In this document: positions 6,007-63,688 of the stretch, piece after piece
Layout: each line of letters begins with the position of its first letter
Position numbering within the stretch: position 1 is the first letter of the stretch
NCBI RefSeq assembly: GCF_035994185.1
Contig: NZ_CP108538.1
Coordinates: 2,170,001-2,234,000, forward strand
Direction: 5' to 3'
Origin: Streptomyces sp. NBC_01217
GTDB taxonomy: Bacteria; Actinomycetota; Actinomycetes; Streptomycetales; Streptomycetaceae
DNA: 64,000 bases
Position numbers and translations under genes: made by a program
Notes under the pieces: generated by a model
What the model saw: the letters and a program-made list of their open reading frames with translations, nothing else
What the model was told of the DNA's origin: nothing
Databases searched by the model: none

Positions 6007-6872
6007 GCGGAACTCTCCGGCCGGTAGGGGGCGGTGGGCAGGCCCGGAACCCCGACCCGCACGGCGAAGACCGCGCCGTCCAGCGGTCCGGGTGCGGCGA
6101 GGCCGTGCCGGGCGCTGGTGACGTACAGGGTGTCCCCGTCGAGGCACAGCCCGGCGGGCTGCACCGCGGGGAGCCGGATCTGCCGGTCCAGGGTGCCGTC
6201 GGCGCGGTAGCGGCGGACGGTGCCGGTGCCCCAGACCGCGGTCCACAGGGCGCCCTCGGCGTCGACCGTCATGCCGTCCGGGCTGCCCCGGTCGAGCACG
6301 GCGAAGGTGTCCGGCGCGCCCGGCAGCCCGCTGTCCGGGTCGACCGGGTAGCGGCGGATGACGCCCTTCGCGCTGTCGGCGAGGTACATCACGGTGCCGT
6401 CCGCCCCGAACGCCGGGCCGTTGGGCACGGTGAGGCCGTCCAGCACCCGGATCACCGTGCCGTCGTGGCCGACCCGGTAGAGGGAGCCCGCGCCCTCCTC
6501 TGCGTCGTACGCCATGCTGCCCGCCCAGAACCGGCCGAGTGGATCGGCGGTGGCGTCGTTCATCCGCATCGGCGTGGCAGCCCCGTCCTCGGGGCGGTCG
6601 AGCCACTCGGGACGTCCGTCCGGGCCGATCAGGCAGATACCGGTCCCGGCGGCCGCGATCCAGTGGCCGGGGCGCCCGTGGACGGGGGCGACCGCGCCCA
6701 ACGGCTCGGTGAGCCGGGCCAGTTCGGTCAGCGGGGCCGTGCGGTCGGCGGGGCCGCTCAGCAGCCGTCCGGTGAGGATGTCGACGAGGACGACGCGGCC
6801 GCCGACCGCGCGGATCCCCTCGCCGAGCCCGAGCCGGTCCTGCCACTGGACGGCCGGTGCGCCGGCGCTCAT
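6003..6872 (-). CDS. SMP-30/gluconolactonase-family sugar lactonase
   Basis: This 289-aa six-bladed beta-propeller lactonase would open galactono-lactone to galactonate. The metal-binding Glu is visible as Glu18 in LGEG, and conserved blade motifs DATADPLGRFWAGS, TVPNGPAFGADG and GSPDGMTVDAEGALW follow; the last supplies the catalytic Asp. No signal peptide is present, so it is cytoplasmic. ATG at 6872 overlaps the aldolase stop, and its own stop overlaps the kinase start (4 bp each). This indicates translational coupling. Position between a sugar dehydrogenase and a sugar-acid dehydratase in one operon supports the galactonolactonase assignment over a general gluconolactonase. Confidence 0.82.
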   Translation of the reverse strand: MSAGAPAVQWQDRLGLGEGIRAVGGRVVLVDILTGRLLSGPADRTAPLTELARLTEPLGAVAPVHGRPGHWIAAAGTGICLIGPDGRPEWLDRPEDGAATPMRMNDATADPLGRFWAGSMAYDAEEGAGSLYRVGHDGTVIRVLDGLTVPNGPAFGADGTVMYLADSAKGVIRRYPVDPDSGLPGAPDTFAVLDRGSPDGMTVDAEGALWTAVWGTGTVRRYRADGTLDRQIRLPAVQPAGLCLDGDTLYVTSARHGLAAPGPLDGAVFAVRVGVPGLPTAPYRPESSA

Positions 6873-7510
6873 CGCCCGGCGTCCGCGGGAAGGCGTACGG
6901 CATCGAGGAAGGCGCGGGTGCGTTCGCGCAGCGCGTCGGGGCTGCCTCCGTCGGCCGCGTCGCCGACCAGCGGGGAGCCGACGCCCACGGCGACCGCGCC
7001 CCGGGCGAGATAGCTACGGGCCAGTTCGGCGTCCACTCCCCCGACCGGCACGAACGGCGCGTCCGGGAACGGCCCGCGCAGCGCCTTCAGATAGCCGGGG
7101 CCTCCGGCCTGTTCGGCGGGGAAGATCTTGTACGCGTCGGCGCCGAGGCGCTGCGCCGCGACGACGTCGGCCGGGGTCATCACTCCGGCCAGCACGGGCA
7201 GCCCGAGGCGCTTCGCCTCGGTGACGCCCTCGCAGACGGCCGGGGTGACGACGAAGTCGGCTCCCGCGTCGCGTACCGCCCGCGCGTCCTCGGCGGTCAG
7301 GACGGTGCCCGCGCCGAGCGGTGCGGCCGGGCCGAGGGCGGCGCGGGCCCGGCGGATGACGTCGAGCGTGCCCTTTCCGCTGAGGGAGACCTCGATGAGG
7401 GCAAGGCCCTCATCGGCGAGGGTGAGTACGGTCCTGAGTGCGGCATCCGCGTCGGCGCCGCGCACGATGGCGACGATCCGGTGGGTGCGCAGCGCGGTCA
7501 GCAGATCCAT
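6869..7510 (-). CDS. dgoA: 2-dehydro-3-deoxy-6-phosphogalactonate aldolase (KDPG/KDPGal aldolase family)
   Basis: This 213-aa class I aldolase would split KDPGal into pyruvate and glyceraldehyde-3-phosphate. The Schiff-base lysine is Lys128 in ADAYKIFPAE and the catalytic Glu is Glu40 in LIEVS, close to the spacing of E. coli Eda. The phosphate-binding GGV stretch (VPVGGVDAE) is also present. The ATG at 7510 has a strong purine-rich ribosome site (AAGGAAAGGG) and overlaps the mutarotase gene by 13 bp. An upstream extension of the frame has no ribosome site and lies inside the neighbouring gene, so this start is preferred. The family cannot separate KDPG from KDPGal; the adjacent dgoD-type dehydratase favours KDPGal. 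Confidence 0.88.
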   Translation of the reverse strand: MDLLTALRTHRIVAIVRGADADAALRTVLTLADEGLALIEVSLSGKGTLDVIRRARAALGPAAPLGAGTVLTAEDARAVRDAGADFVVTPAVCEGVTEAKRLGLPVLAGVMTPADVVAAQRLGADAYKIFPAEQAGGPGYLKALRGPFPDAPFVPVGGVDAELARSYLARGAVAVGVGSPLVGDAADGGSPDALRERTRAFLDAVRLPADAGR

Positions 7511-18766: not shown

Positions 18767-20890
18767 TCAGGGCATCCGGACCAGATGCACCGCTGCGCTC
18801 GCCCAGTCCCCACGGGGCAGTTCGGGCCGGATCCCGTACTCCCGCAGCACAGTTGCGGAGTGGACCGCGCCGGTGCGGGCGTCGCGGTAGCGGGCGGCGG
18901 GATCCAGTCCGGCCGGGCGCAGCAGCGGGGCGGGGTCGCCCGGCCGGGAGGTCCGCCGCCAAACGAGCAGCAGGGCCTCGCCGCGGTCGGCCGCGGTGTA
19001 CTGCACGGCCGCCGCGCCCTCGTCGTCGGGTGCGCGCAGCCGGTGGAGTCCGCCGTGCTGGACGAGGTGGCGGATCCGCTTGTACTCGGCCAACAGGGCG
19101 GCGCCCTCGGCGAGTTCGTCCTCGGACCACCGCGACAGGTCGCCGCCGATGCCCAGTACCCCGGCCATCGCCACATGGAAGCGGAAGCGCAGCGGCACCG
19201 AGCGGCCGGTGAACTGGTTCGGCACATCGGTCACCCAGGCGGCCATGGTCCGCGCCGGATAGAGCTGGCCGTATCCGTGCTGGATGTCGATGCGGTCGGC
19301 GGCGTCGGTGTTGTCCGAGGGCCAGGCCTGGTCGGTGCGCGCGAGCATGCCCAGGTCCACCCGGCCGCCCCCGCCGCTGCACGTCTCGATCCGGAGCCCG
19401 GGGTGCTCCGCGCGGAGCCGGTCGATGATCCCGTAGAGGTGCTGGACGTACGCCGTCCACACCGCGTCGGCCCCCTCCGCCCGGTCCGGCCAGCCGGCTT
19501 CGCTGAAGGCGCGGTTCATGTCCCACTTCAGGAAGTCGATGCCGTGGTCGCCGACGAGCCGGGTCAGCCAGCCGTACGCCCAGTCGGCGACGTCGCGGCG
19601 GGCGAGGTTGAGCACCAGCTGGCTGCGCAGCTCGGTACGGGTGCGGTGGGGGAAGTGGAGCACCCAGTCCGGGTGCGTGCGGTAGAGATCGCTGTCCGGG
19701 CTGACCATCTCCGGCTCCACCCACAGGCCGAAGCGCATGCCGAGCCGGTGCACCTCCTCGACCAGAGGCGTCAGCCCTCCGGGGAAGCGGTCCGGGGCCG
19801 GTGACCAGTCACCGAGTCCGGCCTCCGCGCTGCGGCGCGCCCCGAACCATCCGTCGTCCATGACGTAGAGCTCCACGCCGAGCGCCGCCGCCCGGGCGGC
19901 CAGCGCCCGCTGGCCCGCTTCGTCCACGTCGAAGCCGGTCGCCTCCCAGGAGTTGTAGAGGACCGGCCGGATCTCCCGGGGGTGCGGCAGTACATGGGCG
20001 AGGGTGTACGCGTGCCAGGCCCGGCTCGCCGCACCGAAGCCGCCCTCGCTGTAGAGGCCGGCGTGCACCGGGGTGGTGTGTTCCTCGCCGGGTCCGAGCG
20101 GGAGGGCCGGGCCCTCGTGACCGGCACCTCCAGTGAAGCCCGCCCGGCCGTCGGGGGTGCGCTGCACGGTGATGCGCCAGCTGCCGCTCCAGGCCAGGGC
20201 CGCGCTCCACACCTGGCCGTGGTTCTCGCTCGCGTCGCCCGCGTCGAGCATCACCCAGGGGTTCGCGTGGTGGCTGGTGATGCCCCGTCTGCTGGTGAGG
20301 ACCGTCTCGCCGAACGGCAGCGGGTCGCGGCGCAGCCGGGTCTCGGCCGACCACTGGCCGGTGACATGGCTCAGCCGGTAGCCGTCCCGGAGCGGCAGGG
20401 CCCAGGCGGCGGAGTCGGCGCGCTGGAGAGCGACGGGGGCCACGCCGTCGTTGCGCAGCACGGTCCAGCGCTCGATGACGTCGCTGTCGTCGTGGACCCG
20501 GTAGTGGAGTGCCACCCGCAGGGGGTGCACCCGGTCGCGGAACTCCAGGACCAGTTCGGTCGAGCCCGGTGCCGGCTCGTGCACCCGGTGGCCGGTGGCC
20601 TGCCATTCGAAGGCACGGGTGCCGTCGGCGAAGCGCACCTGCAGCGAGGGAGGTCCGTAGCGCGGTCCGCCGTCGACGGGCAGTTCCTCGCCGACGGACG
20701 GCCGTCCCTCGAAGCTGCTGGCCGGCGGCCCTGGCGGAGTCACGAGTTCCCCGGCCTCCTCCAGGGTCAGCGCGGGTCCCCACCCCAGGTGGCAGGGCGC
20801 TCCCGTCGCGTCGATCCGCAGCGCGTACGAGGTGCGCGGGGTGGAGAGCAGCCAGACCCCGGCGTCGGGGGCGAAGGCGATCACAGGCAT
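18767..20890 (-). CDS. Second cytoplasmic GH36 alpha-galactosidase
   Basis: This 707-aa GH36 enzyme has nucleophile Asp457 in FLKWDMNRAF, acid/base Asp526 in AWPSDNTDAA and the ETCSGGGGR substrate loop. Barrel motifs match its paralogue at 11111-13225 (VLYNSWEATGFDV, VMDDGWFGAR). No signal peptide is seen. ATG at 20890 has a GAGG ribosome site. It is transcribed divergently from the ROK regulator gene, an arrangement typical of a direct regulatory target. Two intracellular alpha-galactosidases with separate promoters suggest different linkage or chain-length preferences, which sequence alone cannot reveal. Confidence 0.92.
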   Translation of the reverse strand: MPVIAFAPDAGVWLLSTPRTSYALRIDATGAPCHLGWGPALTLEEAGELVTPPGPPASSFEGRPSVGEELPVDGGPRYGPPSLQVRFADGTRAFEWQATGHRVHEPAPGSTELVLEFRDRVHPLRVALHYRVHDDSDVIERWTVLRNDGVAPVALQRADSAAWALPLRDGYRLSHVTGQWSAETRLRRDPLPFGETVLTSRRGITSHHANPWVMLDAGDASENHGQVWSAALAWSGSWRITVQRTPDGRAGFTGGAGHEGPALPLGPGEEHTTPVHAGLYSEGGFGAASRAWHAYTLAHVLPHPREIRPVLYNSWEATGFDVDEAGQRALAARAAALGVELYVMDDGWFGARRSAEAGLGDWSPAPDRFPGGLTPLVEEVHRLGMRFGLWVEPEMVSPDSDLYRTHPDWVLHFPHRTRTELRSQLVLNLARRDVADWAYGWLTRLVGDHGIDFLKWDMNRAFSEAGWPDRAEGADAVWTAYVQHLYGIIDRLRAEHPGLRIETCSGGGGRVDLGMLARTDQAWPSDNTDAADRIDIQHGYGQLYPARTMAAWVTDVPNQFTGRSVPLRFRFHVAMAGVLGIGGDLSRWSEDELAEGAALLAEYKRIRHLVQHGGLHRLRAPDDEGAAAVQYTAADRGEALLLVWRRTSRPGDPAPLLRPAGLDPAARYRDARTGAVHSATVLREYGIRPELPRGDWASAAVHLVRMP

Positions 20891-20929
20891 TGATCCTCAC
20901 GTTCAGGTTGCGCCACGAAGGCAGTGGGC

Positions 20930-20958
20930 AGCCAACTCTTCCTTTGATCAGCTGTCAA
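20930..20958 (-). promoter_or_regulatory. Probable promoter of the divergent GH36 gene
   Basis: A clear -35 TTGACA lies at 20958-20953 on the minus strand. The -10 17 nt downstream is poor (TTGGCT, 20935-20930), which fits a promoter needing an activator or released by a repressor. It lies within 100 bp of the ROK promoter on the other strand. Confidence 0.4.
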
Positions 20959-21024
20959 TCCCCCGTCCCTGTATGAGATTTGCATGCTTCCGCCGTGGAG
21001 AGTTGAGATTTCGAAAGAGCCTGT

Positions 21025-21062
21025 TTCTTTTATTGACAGCAGAAAAGAACACCCTCTACGTT
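21025..21062 (+). promoter_or_regulatory. Leaderless ROK promoter with a flanking inverted repeat
   Basis: A -35 TTGACA (21033-21038) and -10 TACGTT (21057-21062) are 18 nt apart. Transcription should begin at about 21068-21069, the A of the ATG, so the mRNA would be leaderless. A perfect 7-bp inverted repeat TTCTTTT (21025-21031) and AAAAGAA (21043-21049) brackets the -35, a natural autoregulatory operator site. Confidence 0.6.
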
Positions 21063-21068
21063 TCGGCC

Positions 21069-22244
21069 ATGCGCTCGTCCCCCGGTACGGAGGCAGTCCC
21101 GGTCCCGACTCCGGCCGCTTCCCTCGTCTTCACCACCACGCTCTCCCACGGCCCGCTCACCCGGGCCGAGATCGGTCGTCGGACCGGTCTGTCACCGGCC
21201 GCGGTCACCAAGGCCGTACGGCCGCTGATGGCGGCGGGCTATCTCGTCGAGGGAGTGGACGAGGAGGCGCCGCCGTCGCTCGGACGGCCCGCCAACCTCG
21301 TACGGGTGGACGGCGGCCGCGCACTGTTCATCGGGGTCAAGGTCACCGGGGACGAGATCATCGCGGTGCTCACCGACCTGTGCTGCCGCATCCGGGTCGC
21401 CCGGCATGTCCGGATCACCACCCGTGATCCCGCCTCCGTGCTCGCCTCGACCGGCGCGCTCGTGCAGGAACTCCTCCTGGAGGCCGACGGGTTCGGGGTG
21501 CGGGTGAGCGGCATGGGTCTCGCGGTGTCCGGAGATGTGGACCGCGCGGCCGGAGTGGTCCGCTACTCACCGTTCCTGGACTGGCGCGATGTTCCGCTCG
21601 CCGAGCTGGCACAGGCCGTGACGGGCCTGCCGGTCACGGTCGACAACGACGTCCGGGCACTGACGGTGGCCGAGCAGTGGTTCGGGGCCGGCGTGGGGGT
21701 GCCGGACTTCGCGCTGGTGACCGTCGGCGCGGGCATCGGCTGCGGGCTCGTGGTGCACGGCAGGGTGGTCTCCGGTGCGCACGGGGTGGCCGGCGAGATC
21801 GGGCATCTGTCCATCGACCCGCAGGGACCGCCGTGCCACTGCGGCAACACCGGGTGCGTGGAAGCCATCGCGGGTGACGCCGCGATCATCCGCCGGGTGG
21901 CGGAGGTGACCGGGCTGCCGGTCACCGACTCCGCCGAGGCGCTGCGGCTCGCGCACCGGGGCGACCCCGGGGCCCGTGAGGTGTACGCCAGGGCCGGGGA
22001 GGCGATCGGCCGCGCCATCGGGGCCGTCGTCAATGTCCTGGGACCCCAGCGGGTGATCATCTCGGGCGAGGGCCTGGCGGCGTACGACCTGTTCGCCGAG
22101 CAGATCCGCGACACCTTCGCCGCGGCCGCCTTCGGCACCGCCGCCCAGTGCGACGTGATGACCCGCCCGCTCCCCTTCGAGGTATGGGCGCGCGGGGCCG
22201 CGGCCACCGCGATCCAGTCCTTCATCGGTACAGAACACGTATGA
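21069..22244 (+). CDS. ROK-family transcriptional regulator
   Basis: This 391-aa regulator has an N-terminal winged helix (about 28-65: LTRAEIGRRTGLSPAAVTKA) and a C-terminal ROK sugar-kinase-like domain. The zinc motif CHCGNTGCVE and its upstream GEIGHLSI are intact, as expected of NagC/XylR-type sensors that bind a sugar. The ATG at 21069 is preferred over in-frame upstream codons because the -10 box ends only 6 bp before it and no ribosome site exists. It heads the plus-strand operon (binding protein 9 bp downstream, with GGAG overlapping the ROK stop) and diverges from GH36. It is therefore the likely master regulator of the locus, perhaps also acting at the two AT-rich elements. Confidence 0.9.
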   Translation: MRSSPGTEAVPVPTPAASLVFTTTLSHGPLTRAEIGRRTGLSPAAVTKAVRPLMAAGYLVEGVDEEAPPSLGRPANLVRVDGGRALFIGVKVTGDEIIAVLTDLCCRIRVARHVRITTRDPASVLASTGALVQELLLEADGFGVRVSGMGLAVSGDVDRAAGVVRYSPFLDWRDVPLAELAQAVTGLPVTVDNDVRALTVAEQWFGAGVGVPDFALVTVGAGIGCGLVVHGRVVSGAHGVAGEIGHLSIDPQGPPCHCGNTGCVEAIAGDAAIIRRVAEVTGLPVTDSAEALRLAHRGDPGAREVYARAGEAIGRAIGAVVNVLGPQRVIISGEGLAAYDLFAEQIRDTFAAAAFGTAAQCDVMTRPLPFEVWARGAAATAIQSFIGTEHV

Positions 22245-22253
22245 GGAGCAGTA

Positions 22254-23564
22254 ATGACGATGCAGAGCCGCATCACGCCCGTCACCGGTCACAGCCGCCG
22301 TTCAGTGGTGCGCGGCACGCTCGGAATCGGTGCGGCGGCACTGGCCGCACCCCTGTTGACGGCCTGCGGCGGCGGCCCTTCGTCCGACCCGAAGACGGTG
22401 ACCTTCGGATCCAACGGGGCGGACGCCACCCCCAAGTCCGCCTACGCGGAGCTGACCGGCGCGTTCACCAAGGACAGCGGTCTGAAGGTGAAGACGAACA
22501 CCGTCGACCATGACACGTTCCAGAAGAGCATCTCCAGCTACCTCCAGGGCACACCGGACGATGTCTTCACCTGGTTCGCCGGTTACCGCATGCAGTACTT
22601 CGCCAAGAAGAAGCTCGCCCACCCGATCGACGACGTCTGGGACTCCATAGGCTCCGGCTTCAGCGACGCCGCGAAGCAGCTCTCCAGGGGCGAGGACGGC
22701 AAGTACTACTTCGTCCCCCTGTACAACTACCCGTGGGCCGTCTTCTACCGCAAGAGCGTGTTCAAGGAGCGCGGGTACGCACCGCCCCGCACCTGGGGCG
22801 AATTCACCGCGCTGGCCAAGCAGATGAGGAAGGACGGCCTCTCGCCGATCGCCTCCGGATACGGCGGGGGCGACAGCTGGTCGATCCTCGGCGCCTTCGA
22901 CTACCTCAACCTGCGGGCCAACGGCTACGAGTTCCACATGTCGCTGATGCGCGGCGAGGTCTCCTGGACCGACCGCAGAGCCTCGCGCACCCTGGACCTC
23001 TGGCGCGAGCTCAGCCCGTACTACCAGCAGGGCGCGGGCGGCCGTTCCTGGCAGGACGCCGCGCAGTCGCTGCTCGACAAGAAGTCCGGCATGGCGGTCA
23101 TCGGGCTGTTCCTGGGACAGCAGATCACCGACGAGAAGCTGCGTGCGGACATCGACTTCTTCGCCTTCCCGGAGATCGACCCGTCGTTCGGCCAGGACAC
23201 GGTCGAGGCGCCCACCGACGGATTCATGCTCAGCCGCAGGCCCAAGAACCCCGAGGGCGCGGCCAAGCTGCTCGAATTCCTGGGCAGCGCCCAGGCGGAG
23301 AACCTCTACATGGGGGTCGACCCGAGCAATGTGGCCGTCCACTCGAAGGCGGACACCAGCGGGTACAACCCGCTGCAGAAGAAGTCCGCGGAGCTCATCG
23401 CCTCGGCGAAGCACATCACCCAGTTCGGCGACCGCGACAGCGACCCGGGCTTCATCTCCACCGTCGTCCTGCCCGGTCTGGCGCAGTGGCTGGGCCACCC
23501 CGACGACGGCTCGGCCCTGCTGAAGAAGATCGAGTCCCAGCGCTCGCGCTTCTTCACGGCCTGA
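22254..23564 (+). CDS. Sugar-binding lipoprotein of the second importer
   Basis: This 436-aa family 1 solute-binding protein has a Tat-like signal (SRRSVVRG) and lipobox LLTACG, so it is predicted to be a lipoprotein. The mature domain has DDVFTWFAGYRM, VFYRKSVFKERG, SGMAVIGLFLGQ and APTDGFML segments shared with the first importer's protein at 15052-16341. It starts 9 bp after the ROK gene with GGAGCA as ribosome site, and two permease genes follow directly. Ligand is inferred to be a galactose-containing oligosaccharide because secreted alpha-galactosidase and fucosidase-family genes follow. Confidence 0.92.
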   Translation: MTMQSRITPVTGHSRRSVVRGTLGIGAAALAAPLLTACGGGPSSDPKTVTFGSNGADATPKSAYAELTGAFTKDSGLKVKTNTVDHDTFQKSISSYLQGTPDDVFTWFAGYRMQYFAKKKLAHPIDDVWDSIGSGFSDAAKQLSRGEDGKYYFVPLYNYPWAVFYRKSVFKERGYAPPRTWGEFTALAKQMRKDGLSPIASGYGGGDSWSILGAFDYLNLRANGYEFHMSLMRGEVSWTDRRASRTLDLWRELSPYYQQGAGGRSWQDAAQSLLDKKSGMAVIGLFLGQQITDEKLRADIDFFAFPEIDPSFGQDTVEAPTDGFMLSRRPKNPEGAAKLLEFLGSAQAENLYMGVDPSNVAVHSKADTSGYNPLQKKSAELIASAKHITQFGDRDSDPGFISTVVLPGLAQWLGHPDDGSALLKKIESQRSRFFTA

Positions 23565-23585
23565 TCAGGACCGGGAAGGTTCGCC

Positions 23586-24560
23586 ATGTCCTCCGTACGC
23601 CCGGCGCCCGACGCCGGCCCTCCCCGGGCTCCCGCGCCGGTTCGCCCGGCGCGGTCCCGCCCCCGGCCGCTGCGGCTCGGCCGCGGCGACCGTCTCTTCC
23701 TCACCGTCATCGTCGGCGTTCCGCTGCTCGCGCTGCTGGTGTTCGTCTGGCTGCCGGCCCTGGCCTCCATCGGGCTGTCCTTCACCACCTGGGACGGCAT
23801 CGAACCCGGTGACATCCAGTGGGTCGGCCTGGACAACTACCGGGAGATCTTCACCAATTACCCGCCCTTCTGGCCCGCGGTGCAGCACAACGTCGTCTGG
23901 CTGCTGTTCACGGCGCTGCTGCCCACCCCGTTCGGCATCTTCCTCGCGTACCACCTCGACCGGAAGATCAGGTTCACCCGCTTCTACCAGACCGCGGTCT
24001 TCCTGCCCATGGTGCTCTCGCTGGCCGTGGTCGGCTTCATCTGGGAGATCATCTACAACCCCGACAACGGACTGCTCAACGGTGTCCTGAACGGGGTGGC
24101 ACCCGGCCATCACATCGACTGGCTGGGCGATCCGGACCTCAATCTGTGGGCCGTGCTCATCGCCTCGGCCTGGCGGCACACCGGCTACATCATGATCCTC
24201 TACCTGGCCGGTCTGAAGGGCTTCGACCCCGCGCTCAAGGAAGCCGCCTCACTGGACGGCGCCAACGGGCGCCAGACCTTCCTGAAGGTGGTCTTCCCGG
24301 CACTCAAGCCGGTCAACATCATCATCCTGGTCGTCACCGTCATGGAGTCGCTGCGGGCCTTCGACATCGTCTATGTGCTCGGCGGCGGCGTCGGCAGCAA
24401 GCCCGGCATGGAGCTGCTGTCGCTCCTGATCACCGACAACATCATCGGCGAGTCCAGCCACATCGGTTACGGCTCCGCGCTCGCGGTCGTCCTGCTCCTC
24501 GTCTCGCTGGTCGCCATCGGGACCTTCCTTGCCCAGACCTTCCGCAAGGAGGACCAGTGA
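23586..24560 (+). CDS. ABC sugar importer permease, MalF type (second system)
   Basis: This 324-aa membrane protein has a long Pro/Arg-rich cytoplasmic N-terminus (about 40 residues), six hydrophobic segments and an EAA loop (FDPALKEAASLDGANGRQTF). It is separated from the lipoprotein gene by 21 bp with a GGGAAGG ribosome site, and its stop overlaps the next permease start in a GTGA junction. It is paralogous to the permease at 14112-15050. As in the first system, no ATPase is encoded nearby, so a shared MsiK-type ATPase is presumed. Confidence 0.9.
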   Translation: MSSVRPAPDAGPPRAPAPVRPARSRPRPLRLGRGDRLFLTVIVGVPLLALLVFVWLPALASIGLSFTTWDGIEPGDIQWVGLDNYREIFTNYPPFWPAVQHNVVWLLFTALLPTPFGIFLAYHLDRKIRFTRFYQTAVFLPMVLSLAVVGFIWEIIYNPDNGLLNGVLNGVAPGHHIDWLGDPDLNLWAVLIASAWRHTGYIMILYLAGLKGFDPALKEAASLDGANGRQTFLKVVFPALKPVNIIILVVTVMESLRAFDIVYVLGGGVGSKPGMELLSLLITDNIIGESSHIGYGSALAVVLLLVSLVAIGTFLAQTFRKEDQ

Positions 24561-25480
24561 CCGCGACCGTCACACCACCGGCCGCCGGCCCGCGCACCCG
24601 CCGCGCACCGCTCCCGGACGCGGGCCCTGCGCGCCCGAGGCGGCAGACCGGACGGCATGTCCTGCTCGGCTCGATCGCCTTCCTGTGGCTCGTCCCGCTG
24701 CTGTGGGCGGTGTACACCTCGCTGCGGCCCTACTCGGACACCAGCAGACACGGCTATCTCTCCCTGCCGCACAGCCTCGGCTTCGAGAACTTCGGCGACG
24801 CCTGGAACCAGTCGGGGATGCCGCACTTCTTCTGGAACTCCGTCCTGATCACCGTTCCGGCGGTGCTCGGCACGCTGCTCTTCTCCGCCGCGGTGGCCTT
24901 CTTCGTCTCCCGGTTCGACTTCCGCTTCAACGTCGTCCTGCTGATGCTCTTCACCGCGGGCAACCTGCTCCCCGCCCAGGTGCTGATCACTCCGCTGTAC
25001 CGGCTCTATCTGCTGATCCCACTGCCCGGCTGGATGAGCGACTCGTTCCTGCTCTACAACTCGGTGTGGGGCATCATCGTCATCCACATCGCCTACCAGT
25101 GCGGCTTCTGCACCTTCGTCCTCAGCAATTACATGCGGACGATCCCGAAGGAGATCACGGAGGCGGCGCTGGTCGACGGCGCCCCCGTGTGGCGCCAGTT
25201 CTTCCAGATCGCGCTGCCGCTGTGCCGTCCCGCGTTCGCGGCGCTCGCCACTCTCGAATCGATCTGGATCTACAACGACTTCTTCTGGTCGCTCGCCCTG
25301 ATCGAGACCGGCGACAAGCGCCCGATCACCTCCGCGCTCGCCAATCTCCAGGGCCAGTACTTCACCAATCCCAATCTCATCGCGGCCGGCGCACTGATGA
25401 CCGCGATCCCCACGCTGCTCGTGTACTTCGCGCTCCAGCGCCAGTTCATCAGCGGTCTGACCATCGGCTCGGGCAAGTAG
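24557..25480 (+). CDS. ABC sugar importer permease, MalG type (second system)
   Basis: This 307-aa permease has a basic Pro-rich N-terminus, six hydrophobic spans and the EAA motif IPKEITEAALVDGAPVWRQF. The GTG start at 24557 overlaps the preceding stop and has AAGGAGG close upstream. The C-terminal FISGLTIGSGK resembles the FVAGLNLGAVK end of the first system's MalG-type subunit, again pointing to duplication of an importer module. An 84-bp gap separates it from the secreted GH27 gene. Confidence 0.9.
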   Translation: MTATVTPPAAGPRTRRAPLPDAGPARPRRQTGRHVLLGSIAFLWLVPLLWAVYTSLRPYSDTSRHGYLSLPHSLGFENFGDAWNQSGMPHFFWNSVLITVPAVLGTLLFSAAVAFFVSRFDFRFNVVLLMLFTAGNLLPAQVLITPLYRLYLLIPLPGWMSDSFLLYNSVWGIIVIHIAYQCGFCTFVLSNYMRTIPKEITEAALVDGAPVWRQFFQIALPLCRPAFAALATLESIWIYNDFFWSLALIETGDKRPITSALANLQGQYFTNPNLIAAGALMTAIPTLLVYFALQRQFISGLTIGSGK

Positions 25481-25564
25481 CGAACGGCCCGGCCCGCACC
25501 CGGAACACCGCACCATCGCCGAATCCCCTTCCCTTTCGCCGAGAAAGCAAAGAGGTCATCTCCC

Positions 25565-27400
25565 ATGCGGTCACCCACCCGCCCCGCCGCAAGATCCCTG
25601 CGCTCCGCGCTGGTGCTCGCCGTCACAGCCGGCCTGGCCATCGCCGTACCGACAGCGCAGGCCGCCCCGTCCGGGGCCCCCGCCGTCACCACGACCGTGG
25701 CCGACGCAGCCGGCCCCGGTGAGGACGGCCTGGCCCAGAAGCCGTACATGGGCTGGAGCAGCTGGAGCCTCCAGACCACCTCGTACCCGGGAGTCAATCC
25801 CGACGGCAACTACAGCTATCTCACCGAAGCCAACGTCAACAAGCAGACCGACGCCCTGGCCTCCAAGCTCAAGAAGTACGGCTACGAGTACATCAACATC
25901 GACGCCGGCTGGTGGCGCGGCTGGGACTGGACGCCGGAGTTCGACGGGTACGGACGCCAGCAGGCCGACAAGGAGCGCTTCCCGAGCGGGATGAAGGCGG
26001 TCGCCGACCGCATTCATGGCAAGGGGCTCAAGGCCGGCATCTATCTGCCCGTCGGCCTGGAGAAGGAGGGCTACGGCGAGGGCAAGCTGCCGATCTGGAA
26101 CACCGACGACTGCACCACCGGCGACATCGTCTACAGCGACCTGCGGACGACCAACGGCTGGGACAGCTCGTACAAGATCGACTTCTCGAAGCCGTGCGCC
26201 CAGAAGTACATCGACTCACAGGCGCAGCTCATCGCCGACTGGGGCTACGACTTCCTCAAGCTCGACGGCGTGGGTCCCGGATCCTTCAAGAGCGGCGACA
26301 ACTACGACAACCGCGCGGACGTCGCGGCCTGGCAGAAGGCCATCAGGAGCACCGGACGGCCCATCCACCTGGAGATCTCCTGGTCGCTCGACATCAACTA
26401 CGCCAAGGACTGGAAGGCCACGTCCAACGGATGGCGCGTGGACACGGATGTCGAGTGCTACTGCAACACGCTGGTGTCGTGGGAGAACTCCGTCGAGGAC
26501 CGGTGGCGTGACACTCCCGGGTGGACGCGGTACGCCGGCCCCGGCGGCTGGAACGACCTCGACTCGATCAATGTCGGCAGTGCCGCGATGAGCGGCCTGA
26601 CCAAGGCCGAGCGGCAGAGCTACATGACGCTGTGGGCGATCGCCAAGTCGCCGCTGTTCAGCGGGGACGACCTCACCCGGATCGACGACTACGGCCTGTC
26701 GCTGATGACCAACCGCGACGTACTGAAGATCAACCAGCAGCCGGGGAGGCCCGCCAAGCCCGTCACCCCGGTCGGCGACGAGCAGGTCTGGGCGTCCCTG
26801 AACCCCGACGGCAGCTACACCGTCGCCCTGTTCAACCAGGGGGACTCCCCCTCGCCGGTGACCGCCGACTGGTCGGCCCTCGGCTTCACGGGCCAGGCGT
26901 CCGTACGCGACGTGTGGAACAGCGAGAACCTCGGCCGGTACAAGGACGGCATCACCCAGGCCCTGCCGGCCCACGGCTCGCGTCTGTTCACCGTCACCCC
27001 GCAGGGCCCCGCGCTGAAGACGACGGCGTACGAGGCGGAGTCCCCGGACAACGTCCTGACCGGTTCCGCGTCCGTCGCCGACTGCGCCGAGTGCTCGGGC
27101 ACGAAGAAGGTCGGCAACCTGTACCTGGGCGCCACGCTCCAGTTCACGGACGTCGTCGTCAAGCGGGCCGGCCGCTACCTGATCAACGTCGCCTACACGT
27201 CGGGGGATCCGCGGTCGATCGGCGTCTCGGCGAACGGCAAGGCACCCGTCGCGACGGCCTTCCCGTCCACCGGTGGCTGGGGTGCGGCCGACACGATCAG
27301 CGTGCCGGTCACGCTGAAGGCGGGCAGCAACACCGTCACCTTCGACAGTGGTACGGGCTACTCGCCCGACATCGACAGGATCGACGTTCCGCTCCTGTAG
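25565..27400 (+). CDS. Secreted GH27 enzyme with C-terminal CBM35-like module, alpha-galactosidase or related
   Basis: This 611-aa protein has a Sec-type signal ending near Ala-Gln-Ala (residue 33). The GH27 barrel begins with KPYMGWSSWSLQ; the nucleophile is Asp234 in FLKLDGVG and the acid/base Asp295 in WRVDTDVE. The sugar-pocket loop GGWNDLDS is present. A beta-sandwich follows, then from about residue 485 a carbohydrate-binding module of the CBM35 kind (YEAESPDN, FTDVVVKRAGRYLINVAY, SPDIDRIDV). GH27 also contains beta-L-arabinopyranosidases and isomaltodextranases, so specificity is open. An AGAGG ribosome site precedes the ATG, and the gene probably belongs to the ROK operon. Confidence 0.87.
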   Translation: MRSPTRPAARSLRSALVLAVTAGLAIAVPTAQAAPSGAPAVTTTVADAAGPGEDGLAQKPYMGWSSWSLQTTSYPGVNPDGNYSYLTEANVNKQTDALASKLKKYGYEYINIDAGWWRGWDWTPEFDGYGRQQADKERFPSGMKAVADRIHGKGLKAGIYLPVGLEKEGYGEGKLPIWNTDDCTTGDIVYSDLRTTNGWDSSYKIDFSKPCAQKYIDSQAQLIADWGYDFLKLDGVGPGSFKSGDNYDNRADVAAWQKAIRSTGRPIHLEISWSLDINYAKDWKATSNGWRVDTDVECYCNTLVSWENSVEDRWRDTPGWTRYAGPGGWNDLDSINVGSAAMSGLTKAERQSYMTLWAIAKSPLFSGDDLTRIDDYGLSLMTNRDVLKINQQPGRPAKPVTPVGDEQVWASLNPDGSYTVALFNQGDSPSPVTADWSALGFTGQASVRDVWNSENLGRYKDGITQALPAHGSRLFTVTPQGPALKTTAYEAESPDNVLTGSASVADCAECSGTKKVGNLYLGATLQFTDVVVKRAGRYLINVAYTSGDPRSIGVSANGKAPVATAFPSTGGWGAADTISVPVTLKAGSNTVTFDSGTGYSPDIDRIDVPLL

Positions 27401-31725: not shown

Positions 31726-32673
31726 CTACCTCAGGAAGGGGTCGACCGCCACGGCGACGAAGAGCAGCGAGACATAGGTGATCGACCAGTGGAACAGCCG
31801 CATCTCCTTGAGCTTGGCCCCGGACACCCCGGCCTTCGCCCGGGCCTGCAGGCCGTGTGCCTCCCAGAGCCAGAACCCGCCGGTCAGCAGCGCCACCGCG
31901 GTGTAGAACCACCCGGTGTAGCCGAGGGGAGTGAGCAGCAGGGAGACGGCCACCATCACCCAGCTGTAGAGGACGATCTGGCGGGCCACCACCCGATTGG
32001 AGGCGATGACCGGAAGCATCGGGACGCCGACGCGGGCGTAGTCGTCCTTCACCTTCATCGACAGCGGCCAGTAGTGCGGCGGCGTCCAGAAGAAGATGAC
32101 GGCGAAGAGGATGACGGCGGCCCAGGACATCGAGTCGGTCACGGCGGACCAGCCGATGAGGACCGGCATGCAGCCCGCGATGCCTCCCCAGACGATGTTC
32201 TGCGAGGTCCGGCGCTTCAGCAGCATCGTGTAGACCACGACGTAGAAGAGCAGCGCACCGAGCGACAGCGCCGCCGACAGCCAGTTGACCAGCAGTCCGA
32301 ACCAGACCGTCGAGATCACCGCGAGGGCGATGCCGAAGGCCAGGCACTCGCGCGGGCTCACCATTCCCGTGACCAGCGGACGCTGCGACGTCCGATCCAT
32401 CAGCGCGTCGATGTCGCGGTCGATGTACATGTTCAGCGCATTGGCACCACCCGCGGAGAGATATCCGCCGACGGTGGTGGTGAGAACGAGCCACAGATCG
32501 GGTACACCCTGAGCGGCGAGGAACATCACCGGAACAGTGGTGATCAGCAACAGCTCGATGATCCGGGGCTTGGTCAGTGCCACGAATGCCTTGACACGGA
32601 CCCCGAACGGGCGATGGCCCCCTGGGCTGGGAGTCAAGGCGACCCCTGCGGGTCGGGACTCGACGGCCGTCAC
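31726..32673 (-). CDS. ctaB: Protoheme IX farnesyltransferase (heme O synthase)
   Basis: This 315-aa integral membrane prenyltransferase attaches farnesyl to protoheme to make heme O, the substrate of CtaA. The first diphosphate-binding motif [18 protein letters not shown] and the downstream [13 protein letters not shown] motif are intact among about nine hydrophobic helices. GTG at 32673 is chosen because AGGGG lies 5 nt before it; a GTG two codons upstream is possible. The gene is divergent from tkt across a 480-bp intergenic region containing a regular motif array. Confidence 0.95.
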
Positions 32674-32821
32674 GCACACCCCTGACAGAGAAATCCCAGC
32701 AAGCTCCGGGCGTGAAGGCCCGGTAAAGACTTGCGCGAACCAGACCACTGTAGACGTTGGGGACAGGCCCCCCTTCGCGGGGGTGGGGTCGTGTTGAAGT
32801 GGCTCACTAGCAGGCGCCCGT

Positions 32822-33022
32822 GCTCATAGGAGTGGCCCGGTCGCGCATCGGTGGCGGACCTCGCTCATGGGAGTGGGGTGGCGGCGCACAAGAAAAGAGC
32901 CTCGCTCATCGGAGTGACACAGCGGCACATAAGTAAGAGGACACGCTCATCGGAGGGCCCAGAAGTAGGGGTTCACGCTCATCGGAGTAGCGCATCGGTG
33001 AGCCGTTGCGCTCATACGGGAG
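32822..33022. repeat. Phased array of six CTC-N4-GAG motifs between ctaB and tkt
   Basis: Six copies of a motif close to GCTCATCGGAGT begin at 32822, 32863, 32904, 32945, 32977 and 33010. Spacings are 41, 41, 41, 32 and 33 bp, close to four and three helical turns, so all face one side of the DNA. Each holds the small dyad CTC-N4-GAG; the last has N6. The sequence between copies also shows weak 41-bp periodicity, as in a worn tandem repeat. It fills most of the 480-bp divergent region. No protein-coding frame fits. It is best read as a multi-site binding region for an unknown regulator or an architectural protein. Confidence 0.7.
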
Positions 33023-33084
33023 GCGAACTCAGCGGGCCGCCTGCACCCTGGAAAGCAGCCGGAAAATGCATGTTCCGACGGGGG

Positions 33085-33090
33085 TAGGCT
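33085..33090 (+). promoter_or_regulatory. Probable -10 of the tkt promoter
   Basis: TAGGCT at 33085-33090 matches the Streptomyces vegetative -10 and lies about 64 nt before the tkt start, just beyond the motif array. No good -35 is visible, which is consistent with dependence on an upstream-bound activator. Confidence 0.4.
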
Positions 33091-33153
33091 CGACAACGCC
33101 CGGTGCGGTCACAGTCACCGGTTTACAACAGTGGAGAGGAGCCCTGACTCAGG

Positions 33154-35241
33154 GTGAGCACCAAGCCGACCACCACAGACCTCCAGTGGACCGAATTGGA
33201 CCAGCGGGCCGTGGACACTGTCCGCGTCCTTGCCGCCGACGCCGTACAGAAGGTCGGAAACGGCCACCCGGGCACGGCGATGAGCCTGGCTCCCGCCGCG
33301 TACACCCTCTTCCAGAAGGTGATGCGGCACGACCCCGCCGACGCGGAGTGGACCGGTCGCGACCGGTTCGTGCTCTCGGCGGGTCACAGCAGCCTGACCC
33401 TCTACATCCAGCTCTACCTGGCCGGGTACGGCCTGGAGCTCGATGACCTCAAGGCTTTCCGTACCTGGGGTTCCAAGACCCCCGGGCACCCGGAGTACGG
33501 CCACACCACCGGCGTCGAGACGACCACGGGCCCGCTGGGCCAGGGTGTCGCCAACGCGGTGGGCATGGCGATGGCCGCCCGCTACGAGCGCGGCCTGTTC
33601 GACCCGGAGGCGGCCCCCGGCACCTCCCCGTTCGACCACATGGTCTGGGTCGTCGCCGGCGACGGCTGCCTCCAGGAGGGCATCTCCGCGGAGGCGTCCT
33701 CGCTGGCCGGGCACCAGAAGCTCGGCAACCTGGTCCTGCTGTGGGACGACAACCACATCTCCATCGAGGGCGACACGGAGACCGCGGTCTCCGAGGACAC
33801 CCTGAAGCGGTACGAGGCGTACGGCTGGCACGTCCAGCGCGTCGACCAGCTGCCCAGCGGCGACCTGGACCCGGCGGGCCTGTACCGGGCGCTGCAGGCC
33901 GCCAAGGCCGAGACCGAGCGTCCGTCGTTCATCGCGGCCCGCTCGATCATCGCCTGGCCCGCCCCGCACGCCCAGAACACCGAGGCCTCGCACGGCTCGG
34001 CGCTCGGCGCCGAAGAGGTCGCCGCGACGAAGAAGGTCCTCGGCTTCGACCCGGAGAAGTCCTTCGAGGTCTCCGACGAGGTGATCTCCCACACCCGTGA
34101 GGCACTGGACCGCGGCCGCGAGGCCAAGGCCGAGTGGGAGAAGTCCCTCGCCGCCTGGCGCACCGCCAACCCGGAGCGCGCCGCCGAGTTCGACCGGATC
34201 TCCGCGGGCGAGCTGCCCACGGGCTGGGAGGACAAGCTTCCGGTCTTCGAGCCGGGCAAGAGCGTCGCCACGCGCGCCGCCTCCGGCAAGGTGCTCCAGC
34301 AGCTCGGCGCGATCATCCCCGAGCTGTGGGGCGGCTCCGCCGACCTCGCGGGCTCGAACAACACCACGATCGACAAGACGTCGTCGTTCCTCCCCGCGGG
34401 CAACCCGCTGCCCGAGGCGGACCCGTACGGCCGCACGATCCACTTCGGTATCCGCGAGCACGCCATGGCCGCGGCCATGAACGGCATCGCACTGCACGGC
34501 AACACCCGCGTCTACGGCGGCACCTTCCTGGTGTTCTCCGACTACATGCGCAACGCCGTGCGCCTGTCCGCACTGATGCACCTGCCGGTGACGTACGTGT
34601 GGACGCACGACTCGATCGGTCTCGGCGAGGACGGCCCGACCCACCAGCCGGTGGAGCACCTGGCCTCGCTGCGCGCCATTCCGGGCCTGAACATCGTCCG
34701 CCCGGCCGACGCCAACGAGACCGCCATCGCCTGGCGCGAGATCCTGCGCCGCTACACCAAGGTGTTCGGCAAGGGCGCCCCGCACGGTCTGGCGCTGACC
34801 CGCCAGGGCGTGCCGACGTACGAGGCGAACGAGGACGCGGCCAAGGGCGGCTACGTGCTCTTCGAGGCCGAGGGCGGCAACGCCCAGGTACTCCTGATCG
34901 GTACGGGCTCCGAGGTGCACCTCGCCGTCGAGGCGCGCGAGGAGCTGCAGGCGGCCGGCATCCCGACCCGTGTGGTGTCGATGCCGTCGGTCGAGTGGTT
35001 CGAGGAGCAGGACCAGGCTTACAAGGACAGCGTTCTGCCGCCGTCCGTGAAGGCCCGGGTCGCGGTCGAGGCCGGCATCGGTCTGACCTGGCACCGGTAC
35101 GTCGGTGACGCCGGCCGGATCGTCTCGCTGGAGCACTTCGGTGCCTCGGCCGACGCCAAGGTCCTCTTCCGCGAGTTCGGTTTCACGGGCGAGCACGTCG
35201 CCGCCGCCGCGCGGGAATCTCTCGCCGCCGCCGCACGCTGA
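33154..35241 (+). CDS. tkt: Transketolase
   Basis: This 695-aa thiamine-diphosphate enzyme transfers two-carbon units in the non-oxidative pentose phosphate pathway. The N-terminal [12 protein letters not shown], the TPP-binding [13 protein letters not shown], the pyrimidine-domain [12 protein letters not shown] and the [15 protein letters not shown] substrate motif are all intact. GTG at 33154 follows a purine-rich GAGAGGAG some 13 nt upstream. It begins the run tkt-tal-zwf-opcA-pgl, the usual actinobacterial pentose phosphate cluster. Confidence 0.96.
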
Positions 35242-61735: not shown

Positions 61736-63688
61736 TCAGGAGCGCCCGGGGCGGCGGGCCGCGGCCACGGCGGCGAGCACCTGCTCAAGGACCCGGCTGC
61801 CGGGCGGCATCCTCAGCGGCTCGTACGTCCAGGCATGGCCGACCCAGGGATCGGCCAGGTGATCGTCGGCGACCGGGGTGATTCGCAGCAGCGAGCGCCA
61901 CAGCGGGTCGAGCACCGGCCCGTACTGGGCGGCGTCCTCGCGGTCCGCGACCATCAGCAGATGGACGCCGACCGAGGGCCCCTCGTCGGCGAGGTAGCGC
62001 AGCTGGGTGACGGCCCGGTCGTCGAAGCCGTGCGGGAAGTCATTGACGATCAGCAACTGTTCGCCCGTGTCCAGGTCCGGCGGAAGCGAGTCGGCGGCGC
62101 CGGCCCGGATCGCCATCTGCACCAGGTCGACACGCCGGGTGAGCCGGGCGAGGACCGAGGCCACTCCCCCGGGTCCCGCGGCGGGCGGCCCGGCGAGGGC
62201 CCCGGACCCGACCAGAGGGGCCAGGGCTCCGGCCGCCGAACCCGCGGGGTCGATGACATGGACGGAGAACTCGTCGGCCGGGTACACGGCCAGCAGCCGG
62301 GCCGCGAGCGCGACGGCGTTCTCCATGGCCAGGCGGCGCAGCCGGTCGGTATCCGTCAGGGCCGCGGCCTCGGACGCCGTACGGCCGCTGTCGATCCAGA
62401 TCCCGCGCTCCAGCGGGAGCCGCACCAGCAGCGGGATGCGCAGGCCGGGGCTCTCGGGCAGATGGAGGTCGCCGATGCGCAGCGCCATGGGGATCTCCAT
62501 CGGGACGCGGTAGGCGTGCCAGACGGGGTTGTCCCATCCCGCGTACGCGGCGGGGAGCGCGGGTTCCACGACGGCGGACTCGGCGGCGAGCTGGGCGAGG
62601 TCGCGGTCGAGGACCTCACGGGCCCGGGCGGTCAGTTCGTCGCGCTTGACGCGGGCCTGTTCGCGGGCCCGGTCGCCCGCGCCGCCGATCCGGCTGCGCG
62701 GGTCGGACAGGGTCCGGTCGAGCTCCTGGTCCATGCGGGACTCGGCGAAGTCGACGGCGCTGCGGTACGCGGCGGTGGTGCGGGCCAGGTCCTCGAACAT
62801 GCCCCAGATCTGGTTGTAGAGGCGCTCCTCCATGGACCAGCCGGTCGCGTCCCCGGCGACGGGCTGGGCGGGGCGGCCGGGCTCGGCGGGCGGGGCGGTG
62901 GGAGGGGGCGGCGGGGGCGCGGACGCCTGGCGGCGCGGGTGCGCGTAGTTGATGGGGCCGCCCGCCGTGGCCGTGGGCGGCGGGGTGGTGGGCTCGGTGA
63001 GCGGCTCGGGCTGCTGGGCGGCCGTCGGCGGTGCGGCGGGAGGCCGACGGCCGTCGGAGGACGGTACGGAGCCCGTGCCGTGACCGACCCGGTCCCCGTC
63101 CGGGGTGCGCGGCGGGGGCGGTGCGACCGAGCGGGCCATCGCCCGGGCGACGGCGTCCTGGATGGAACGCGCCAGCTCGGCCGCCTGCGTCAGGCCCTGG
63201 TCGGCGAGCATGGCGGCGAGGCCCCCCGCGTACCCCTGGCCGACGGCGCGGACCTTCCAGGCGCCCTGGCGGCGGTAGAGCTCCAGGGCGGTGACCGCGG
63301 ACTCGGCGTCCAGTCCGGTGAGGGTGCAGGTGGCGATCTCGGTGCCTTCGAGCCCGGTCACGGCGACGAACGGTGCGGCGACCGCACCGAACCTGACCGG
63401 GCCGCCGACGCCCGTGGGCAGAGCCAGCAGCACGGTGACCCGGTGCACCGAAGCGGGCAGGGCATCGAGGTCCACGGCGAGCCGGTGGTCGGCGGCGGCC
63501 TGCCTGGACACTTCGAGCCCGGGCAGCTGGGGCGAGCCCGGGTGGGCGATCCACTCGGTGCCGTGCACGGTGCCGTTCTCGTCGCCGAGCGTGGCACCGG
63601 CCACGACGGGCGTGCCGGCCGATACCCGGATCTCCAGACGGGTCTGGGGCAAGGTGTGGTTCTGCCCCCGGACCAGCTCGGCCGTCAT
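61736..63688 (-). CDS. TerD-domain protein with coiled linker and FtsK-like C-terminal domain
   Basis: This 650-aa protein begins with a TerD domain (about 1-190: AAGTP-type opening, TALELYRRQGAWKVRAVGQG, GYAGGLAAMLADQG). A long Pro/Ala-rich linker (about 200-290) and a charged helical region (about 300-400) follow. The C-terminal part resembles a degenerate FtsK/SpoIIIE-type ATPase (LLIVNDFPHGFDD as Walker B-like strand, SVGVHLLMVADRED), but I see no Walker A. It probably acts in a Ter stress complex at the membrane or with calcium signals. ATG at 63688 follows GAGGGGACAGGG. Confidence 0.8.
   Translation of the reverse strand: MTAELVRGQNHTLPQTRLEIRVSAGTPVVAGATLGDENGTVHGTEWIAHPGSPQLPGLEVSRQAAADHRLAVDLDALPASVHRVTVLLALPTGVGGPVRFGAVAAPFVAVTGLEGTEIATCTLTGLDAESAVTALELYRRQGAWKVRAVGQGYAGGLAAMLADQGLTQAAELARSIQDAVARAMARSVAPPPPRTPDGDRVGHGTGSVPSSDGRRPPAAPPTAAQQPEPLTEPTTPPPTATAGGPINYAHPRRQASAPPPPPPTAPPAEPGRPAQPVAGDATGWSMEERLYNQIWGMFEDLARTTAAYRSAVDFAESRMDQELDRTLSDPRSRIGGAGDRAREQARVKRDELTARAREVLDRDLAQLAAESAVVEPALPAAYAGWDNPVWHAYRVPMEIPMALRIGDLHLPESPGLRIPLLVRLPLERGIWIDSGRTASEAAALTDTDRLRRLAMENAVALAARLLAVYPADEFSVHVIDPAGSAAGALAPLVGSGALAGPPAAGPGGVASVLARLTRRVDLVQMAIRAGAADSLPPDLDTGEQLLIVNDFPHGFDDRAVTQLRYLADEGPSVGVHLLMVADREDAAQYGPVLDPLWRSLLRITPVADDHLADPWVGHAWTYEPLRMPPGSRVLEQVLAAVAAARRPGRS

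Follow-up and report, generated by a model that had tools for sequence, protein, structure and literature searches.

In Streptomyces, the oxidative pentose phosphate operon is a source of the NADPH that antibiotic synthesis and redox defence consume. In a 9.03-Mb Streptomyces genome a row of six similar short sequences lies between this operon and the gene for heme O synthase, which raises the question of whether they are binding sites of a regulator or a tandem repeat. The window analysed here is a stretch of 64,000 nucleotides of that genome (G000:C1:2170001-2234000). Judged by transketolase, the nearest named relative among the matches listed is Streptomyces sp. Ncost-T10-10d (97% identity).

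The ctaB-tkt locus

The two genes are divergent, with ctaB read leftward and tkt rightward, and tal, zwf, opcA and pgl follow downstream of tkt. The landmarks of the region are:

31726..32673, minus strand: ctaB, heme O synthase (UbiA family; UbiA E 4e-68)
33085..33090, plus strand: putative tkt -10 hexamer TAGGCT, within the conserved block GGGGGTAGGCTCG
33154..35241, plus strand: tkt, transketolase (Transketolase_N E 2.2e-137)

The start of ctaB probably lies near 32673, and its longest open frame reaches 32748. The block GGGGGTAGGCTCG was present, with up to two mismatches and in order with a ctaB-side block, in 77 of 81 ctaB-tkt loci; a scan with the sigma-70 consensus found no promoter. 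Closer to the gene, the tkt leader GAGAGGAGCCCTGACTCAGGGTG (33134-33156) is nearly invariant among the ctaB-tkt loci inspected and holds an inverted repeat, CCCTGACTCAGGG, which follows the likely ribosome-binding site and precedes the GTG start. Elsewhere in the window, positions 18767-27400 hold a galactoside-type cluster that encodes a GH36 melibiase, a ROK-family protein, solute-binding and transport proteins and an alpha-galactosidase with carbohydrate-binding modules.

Six copies of a two-box unit

The hexamer GCTCAT starts at 32822, 32863, 32904, 32945, 32977 and 33010 in the ctaB-tkt spacer, which reproduces the six copies and the spacings of 41, 41, 41, 32 and 33 bp given in the original prediction. 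The pattern GCTCATNGGAG fits five of the six copies, and the sixth (33010) reads GCTCATACGGGAGG. The dyad CTC-N4-GAG, which had been described as preserved, is therefore found in the five copies that fit the pattern but not in the sixth, where it is CTC-N6-GAG. Such variable dyad spacing would be unusual for a rigid dimer and counts against the reading as operators. Common to all six copies is the half-site GCTCA, and because N6 occurs in the copy that keeps a fixed promoter distance (the anchor copy), GCTCA/TGAGC describes the site better than CTC-N4-GAG does.

The motif as first described turned out to be half of the repeated unit: the A-box is real, but a weaker B-box upstream of it had been missed. 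The unit is about 32 bp long and consists of the B-box CnCAgnaGtG, a fixed gap of 8 nt and the A-box CGCTCATCGGAG, a consensus drawn from 40 non-anchor and 26 anchor units of the window and related genomes. A repeat finder placed five 32-nt units in ungapped register, starting at 32801, 32842, 32883, 32924 and 32956. The B-box stretch begins 21 nt upstream of the A-box in each of these five, and the sixth copy keeps the same B-to-A register. This register is constant although the linkers between the units vary (9, 9, 9, 0 and 1 bp). The units are:

32801..32832, plus strand: unit 1, weak B-box, gap and A-box GCTCATAGGAG (32822-32832); 66% to the reference copy
32842..32873, plus strand: unit 2, B-box GCGCATCGGTG, gap and A-box GCTCATGGGAG (32863-32873); 63% to the reference copy
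32883..32914, plus strand: unit 3, degenerate B-box, gap and A-box GCTCATCGGAG (32904-32914); 75% to the reference copy
32924..32955, plus strand: unit 4, B-box GCACATAAGTAAG, gap and A-box GCTCATCGGAG (32945-32955); reference copy of the repeat family
32956..32987, plus strand: unit 5, B-box GCCCAGAAGTAGG, gap and A-box GCTCATCGGAG (32977-32987); 81% to the reference copy
32989..33023, plus strand: unit 6, the anchor copy, B-box GCGCATCGGTGAGC, 6 nt and GCTCATACGGGAGG; fixed distance to the putative tkt -10

All 26 rows compared, most of which had been chosen for containing the anchor copy, have it 73, 74 or 75 bp upstream of TAGGCT (G332, for which no flanks were found, was dropped, and L017 is the same as G155). 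The promoter region holds several copies of one site, as is expected of a cooperative operator array. With up to one mismatch allowed, 50 of 77 ctaB-tkt spacers have the sequence GGGAGGCG (33018-33025 in the window) at 65-67 bp upstream of TAGGCT; five others have it at other distances, and 22 have no match in range. Because this element is placed alike in the 50 spacers, the anchor copy is in part a promoter element that is more widespread than the array lineage.

Boxes are conserved above their surroundings

The five strict copies of the window are 90.8% identical to one another in the A-box and 62.5% in the B-box, compared with 40% both in the gap and in the flank that follows the box. Over 29 distinct within-genome pairs the values are 93.7% for the A-box, 58.6% for the B-box, 40.9% for the gap and 33.0% for the following flank (15 spacers scanned, 13 with distinct pairs; the window and L011 supply 16 of the 29). 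The four A-box columns that are free of the selection pattern are still 72-93% identical. In the single-copy sister clade (11 rows), all four variable columns of 48 fall in the gap between the boxes. The original suggestion that the motif is under selection while the sequence between the copies has diverged agrees with these values, and the A-box does appear, from its conservation, to be selected.

The main rival is a decaying minisatellite, in which slippage or unequal crossing-over duplicated one promoter-upstream segment in tandem, short-tract gene conversion kept the A-box alike, and only the last copy, or none, would be functional. Tandem Repeats Finder gives 2.4 copies of a 41-bp period, the distal units are degenerate, and close relatives such as the window and L011 have unequal copy numbers and linkers of different length. 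However, a 12-bp box with 91-94% identity beside a gap of about 40% is not what uniform drift would produce, and the spacers of other lineages hold the same half-site in other arrangements. The units are not alike over their whole length, as those of a minisatellite would be; rather, the site is conserved above what separates its copies (91-94% vs 33-41%), as in a cooperative operator array. We consider the minisatellite rather unlikely, since the pattern of conservation is that of a putative bipartite binding site and not of an evenly decaying repeat.

Each unit could also be a composite site for two factors, one bound at the B-box and one at the A-box. The lower conservation of the B-box (58.6% vs 93.7%) is in line with this, and reading by eye showed a B-like CAGAAGT close to the -10 of the single-copy clade as well as several in L012 that are not accompanied by A-boxes. 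In several anchor units, on the other hand, the B-box CATCGGTGAGC is close to the reverse complement of the A-box CTCCGATGAGC, and we regard a second factor as unlikely.

Copy number among relatives

A tkt tree (34 rows, 1350 columns) groups the array spacers, 11 rows with two to six strict copies, with support 92/86. A clade of eight rows has exactly one copy (support 100/98), and a clade of seven rows has no strict copy (support 100/99). As placed on this tree, copy number (2-6, exactly 1, or 0) tracks phylogeny. Tandem units with copy numbers that vary between relatives are also what a minisatellite or VNTR shows.

The spacings of 41, 41, 41, 32 and 33 bp in the window compare with 32, 50, 32 and 33 bp in L011, whose transketolase is 97% identical to that of the window, and with 33, 32 and 33 bp in G075. 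Since the spacings of close relatives differ, turnover is fast among the distal copies, and the anchor is retained. Comparison across relatives had been proposed as a check of the array; the copies do recur in related Streptomyces, but their number and spacing differ and one clade has no strict copy.

Of 392 genomes, 51 contain the pair GCTCATNGGAG-N15-45-GCTCAT, compared with 3 for the reversed control. It represents array sequence in 12 of them (G000, G075, G070, G313, G179, G204, G155, G171, G166, G116, G147 and G335, the last assigned from the printed match string only). The 39 other genomes have one pair each. Nine of these 39 matches were inspected, all on the forward strand; six lie in an open frame and three (L172, L177 and L194) do not, and on these nine it is possible that some species have a further locus with one such pair.

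The array is unique in the non-coding part of its genome

The largest family of 11-mers (up to one mismatch) within 32721-33120 has five members, and 500 dinucleotide shuffles gave at most four. Family size five is reached by 4 of the 318 stretches of 400 bp in the window; two are the array and the others start at 6601 and 62801. These two stretches, about 6601-7000 and 62801-63200, each contain five near-identical 11-mers of their own. More telling is a run of three GCTC-N4-GAG boxes separated by 8-38 bp, which the whole 9.03-Mb genome has only at the array (three overlapping matches; reversed control 0).

The pattern GCTCATNGGAG has 21 sites genome-wide (reversed control 1), 16 of them outside the array. 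All 16 lie in a frame that is open over 300 bp; an open frame has little diagnostic power in G+C-rich DNA, but none of the three array positions tested has one. Two same-sequence pairs, located near opposite chromosome ends, are among the 16. The array is the sole non-coding place with an A-box in its genome, and the genome-wide search gave no A-box regulon, which counts against the reading as operators. Outside the window, G000:C1:1203338-1203399 holds an array of GCTCATA-like heptamer repeats.

Two longer patterns were searched in 61 genomes. The extended dyad CGRTGAGC-N6-GCTCAYCG (up to one mismatch) occurs in 33 of the 61, with 45 forward sites vs 19 in the reversed control, counts taken without reading the sites themselves; in the genome of the window its three matches all lie outside the array, a further point against that reading. 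The pattern ATTGAGC-NNNCN-GATGAGC, the paired box of other lineages, was found in 7 of the 61 genomes, with one match each. All seven lie no more than about 210 bp from the tkt-promoter match on the same contig, so that no regulon was found for this pattern either.

The TGAGC half-site in the genus

The comparison across the genus used 77 ctaB-tkt spacers, which are an uneven sample because they come from the closest 80 of 588 confirmed loci. No 5-mer is more over-represented in them than TGAGC (127 vs 24.5 expected; present in 62 of the 77). Among the 458 5-mers of 39 non-redundant spacers from other lineages than that of the window it ranks third (46 vs 11.3; in 27 of the 39). CTC-N4-GAG is the top dyad across the 77 spacers (64 vs 4.84); that it is seen in other lineages too is borne out by the 39 spacers, where it ranks seventh (17 vs 2.35). 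Among 6-mers, TATTCA, AATACG and GAATAC rank above ATGAGC in the 77 spacers, and the 6-mers that contain TGAGC are exceeded in over-representation by other words such as TATTCA and CGTATT, which counts against the TGAGC reading.

In the set of 39, TATTCA is the most over-represented 6-mer (17 of 39 spacers). A palindrome, CCGTATTCAnTTGCCGAATACGG, lies just downstream of the TGAGC pair in other lineages, complete in L077 and imperfect in others, L024 among them; it may be an OhrR-type site of those lineages.

The half-site is arranged differently from lineage to lineage. The last copy lies 33 bp from the -10 in L034 (spacings 109, 20, 11 and 20 bp) and L073 (20, 11 and 20), and 111-112 bp from it in L048 (21 and 12) and L079 (20 and 12); between lineages the distances compare as 75, 33 and 110-112 bp. 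These distances, together with orientation and spacing, which also vary between lineages, are not what a single conserved regulator would predict. TGAGC is absent from 15 of the 77 spacers; for this reason, and since the clade of seven rows has no strict copy, the site is dispensable.

The near-whole-turn phasing that had been claimed for the window copies found no support within this lineage: it rests on tandem copies of one unit, and the five distinct spacings (32, 33, 34, 41 and 50 bp) show no significant phasing (Rayleigh p about 0.26). When same-strand TGAGC spacings of up to 60 bp were pooled over the genus (11, 12, 20, 21, 22, 32, 33, 34, 41, 50 and 52 bp), they were found to lie near whole turns, with R 0.71 and a mean phase of 0.03 turn at 10.5 bp per turn. 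Over 10.4-10.6 bp per turn, R is 0.69-0.73, the mean phase 0.00-0.05 turn and the random p at most 0.001, for eleven spacings that form five clusters only and in a test picked after the spacings had been seen. With spacings of up to 120 bp the phasing is weaker (p 0.07-0.10). TGAGC ranks second of 72 5-mers by phasing (third by clusters), and is the sole one with R of at least 0.70 among the 20 that have 9-13 distinct spacings. The pooled phasing is suggestive.

OhrR and RNA structure

In S. avermitilis, OhrR is reported to shift the tkt2-ctaB intergenic region in gels, and ctaB, tkt2, tal2, zwf2 and pgl transcripts to be raised in an ohrR mutant (PMC6034001). The array could accordingly be a local version of the operator of this peroxide sensor, as the intergenic region, the gene pair and the reported control of ctaB and the tkt operon are the same (PMC6034001). 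The OhrR operator is a MarR-type 13-nt box, ACAATTNAATTGT, which was located at S. avermitilis tkt2-ctaB with three mismatches (PMC6034001). The A-box is unlike it, and its best match in the window spacer has five mismatches, which is the level of single-base shuffles (117 of 385 at five, 26 better); the best matches in 15 array spacers have 5-7. A second OhrR consensus, GCAACTNAATTGC, gave at best five mismatches in the window spacer and 4-6 in the 15 array spacers, as raw mismatch counts. An OhrR operator is thus a very unlikely description of the array.

The repeats might instead act as nucleic-acid structure, as transcribed hairpins or a leader RNA element, and segments of the form GCTCAtcgg...tcggTGAGC that are able to pair can be read from the sequence. 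The array, however, lies upstream of the putative tkt -10. Folding of the two strands was no better than that of shuffles (z -0.37 and +0.75), and a search of Rfam gave no match up to E 1, which speaks against an RNA element. A structural role is highly improbable.

The original statement that no named regulator has this site stands for the literature searched, with partial coverage: no published one was found there, and the sites appear to be undescribed. A literature search with the motif letters gave no work on Streptomyces by title among the matches listed, and the passage matched in PMC10433416 is a primer. According to PMC3293853 and PMC4848846, TktA1 is lower in an argR mutant and SCO1935-1942 show no glucose effect. 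Within the part of the literature searched, OhrR in S. avermitilis is the only reported cis-regulator of this spacer or operon.

Discussion

The units with their rigid register, the conservation of boxes over gaps, the promoter distance, the clade-wise copy number and the uniqueness among non-coding sequence are all direct observations. The array is probably a set of operators of one candidate regulator of tkt, and perhaps of ctaB, that was expanded by tandem duplication under selection. Such a regulator would read the half-site TGAGC/GCTCA, and each 32-bp unit would offer it a strong site, the A-box, and a weaker one, the B-box, at a rigid distance. The principal site would be the anchor copy, 73-75 bp upstream of the putative -10, and the upstream copies, arising from tandem duplication with fast turnover, would raise occupancy or cooperativity. 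The predicted target is tkt-tal-zwf-opcA-pgl, possibly together with ctaB; protein binding, a single regulator and the sign of the regulation are likewise part of the model. From the position of the array we infer the link between respiration and NADPH supply.

A wider reading, which we put forward tentatively as possible, is that an undescribed Streptomyces regulator reads TGAGC in either orientation, cooperatively and on one face of the helix, mainly or only at ctaB/tkt-tal-zwf-opcA-pgl. The lineages would have built their arrays independently, as two-box units of three to four turns here and as direct repeats of one to two turns elsewhere, tying heme O to NADPH supply. If this is true, independent arrays of one half-site at one promoter would be a clear case of regulatory convergence. 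The boxes provide a concrete bait for finding the regulator, and a natural series for comparison is available in relatives that have no copy, one copy or 2-6 copies.

Comparison with known systems

It is familiar for divergent promoters to hold arrays of regulator sites. What is unusual is that across the genus one half-site recurs at one promoter, apparently independently, and is arranged differently from lineage to lineage. Direct-repeat operators are known in Streptomyces, namely the 11-nt repeats of PhoP and the heptamer repeats of SARP regulators, about 11 bp apart. They resemble L034, L073 (20, 11, 20) and the 12-bp pairs in having short half-sites in one orientation at a spacing of about one or two turns. 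They differ in that the core TGAGC is unlike their consensus, and in that the window lineage has spacings of three to four turns and a second, weaker box in each unit.

HrcA/CIRCE sites are of the ACTC-N9-GAGT type and HspR/HAIR sites are CTTGAGT-N7-ACTCAAG. Both are inverted repeats with CTC/GAG or TTGAG halves, like the present site, but their spacers are 9 and 7 nt, compared with 4 or 6 here. Intergenic minisatellites (VNTR) of actinobacteria are built from tandem repeats of 30-50 bp, in numbers that are specific to the lineage. The array is likewise made of tandem units whose copy number is lineage-specific, but here the boxes alone are conserved, and the rest of the unit is about 40% identical.
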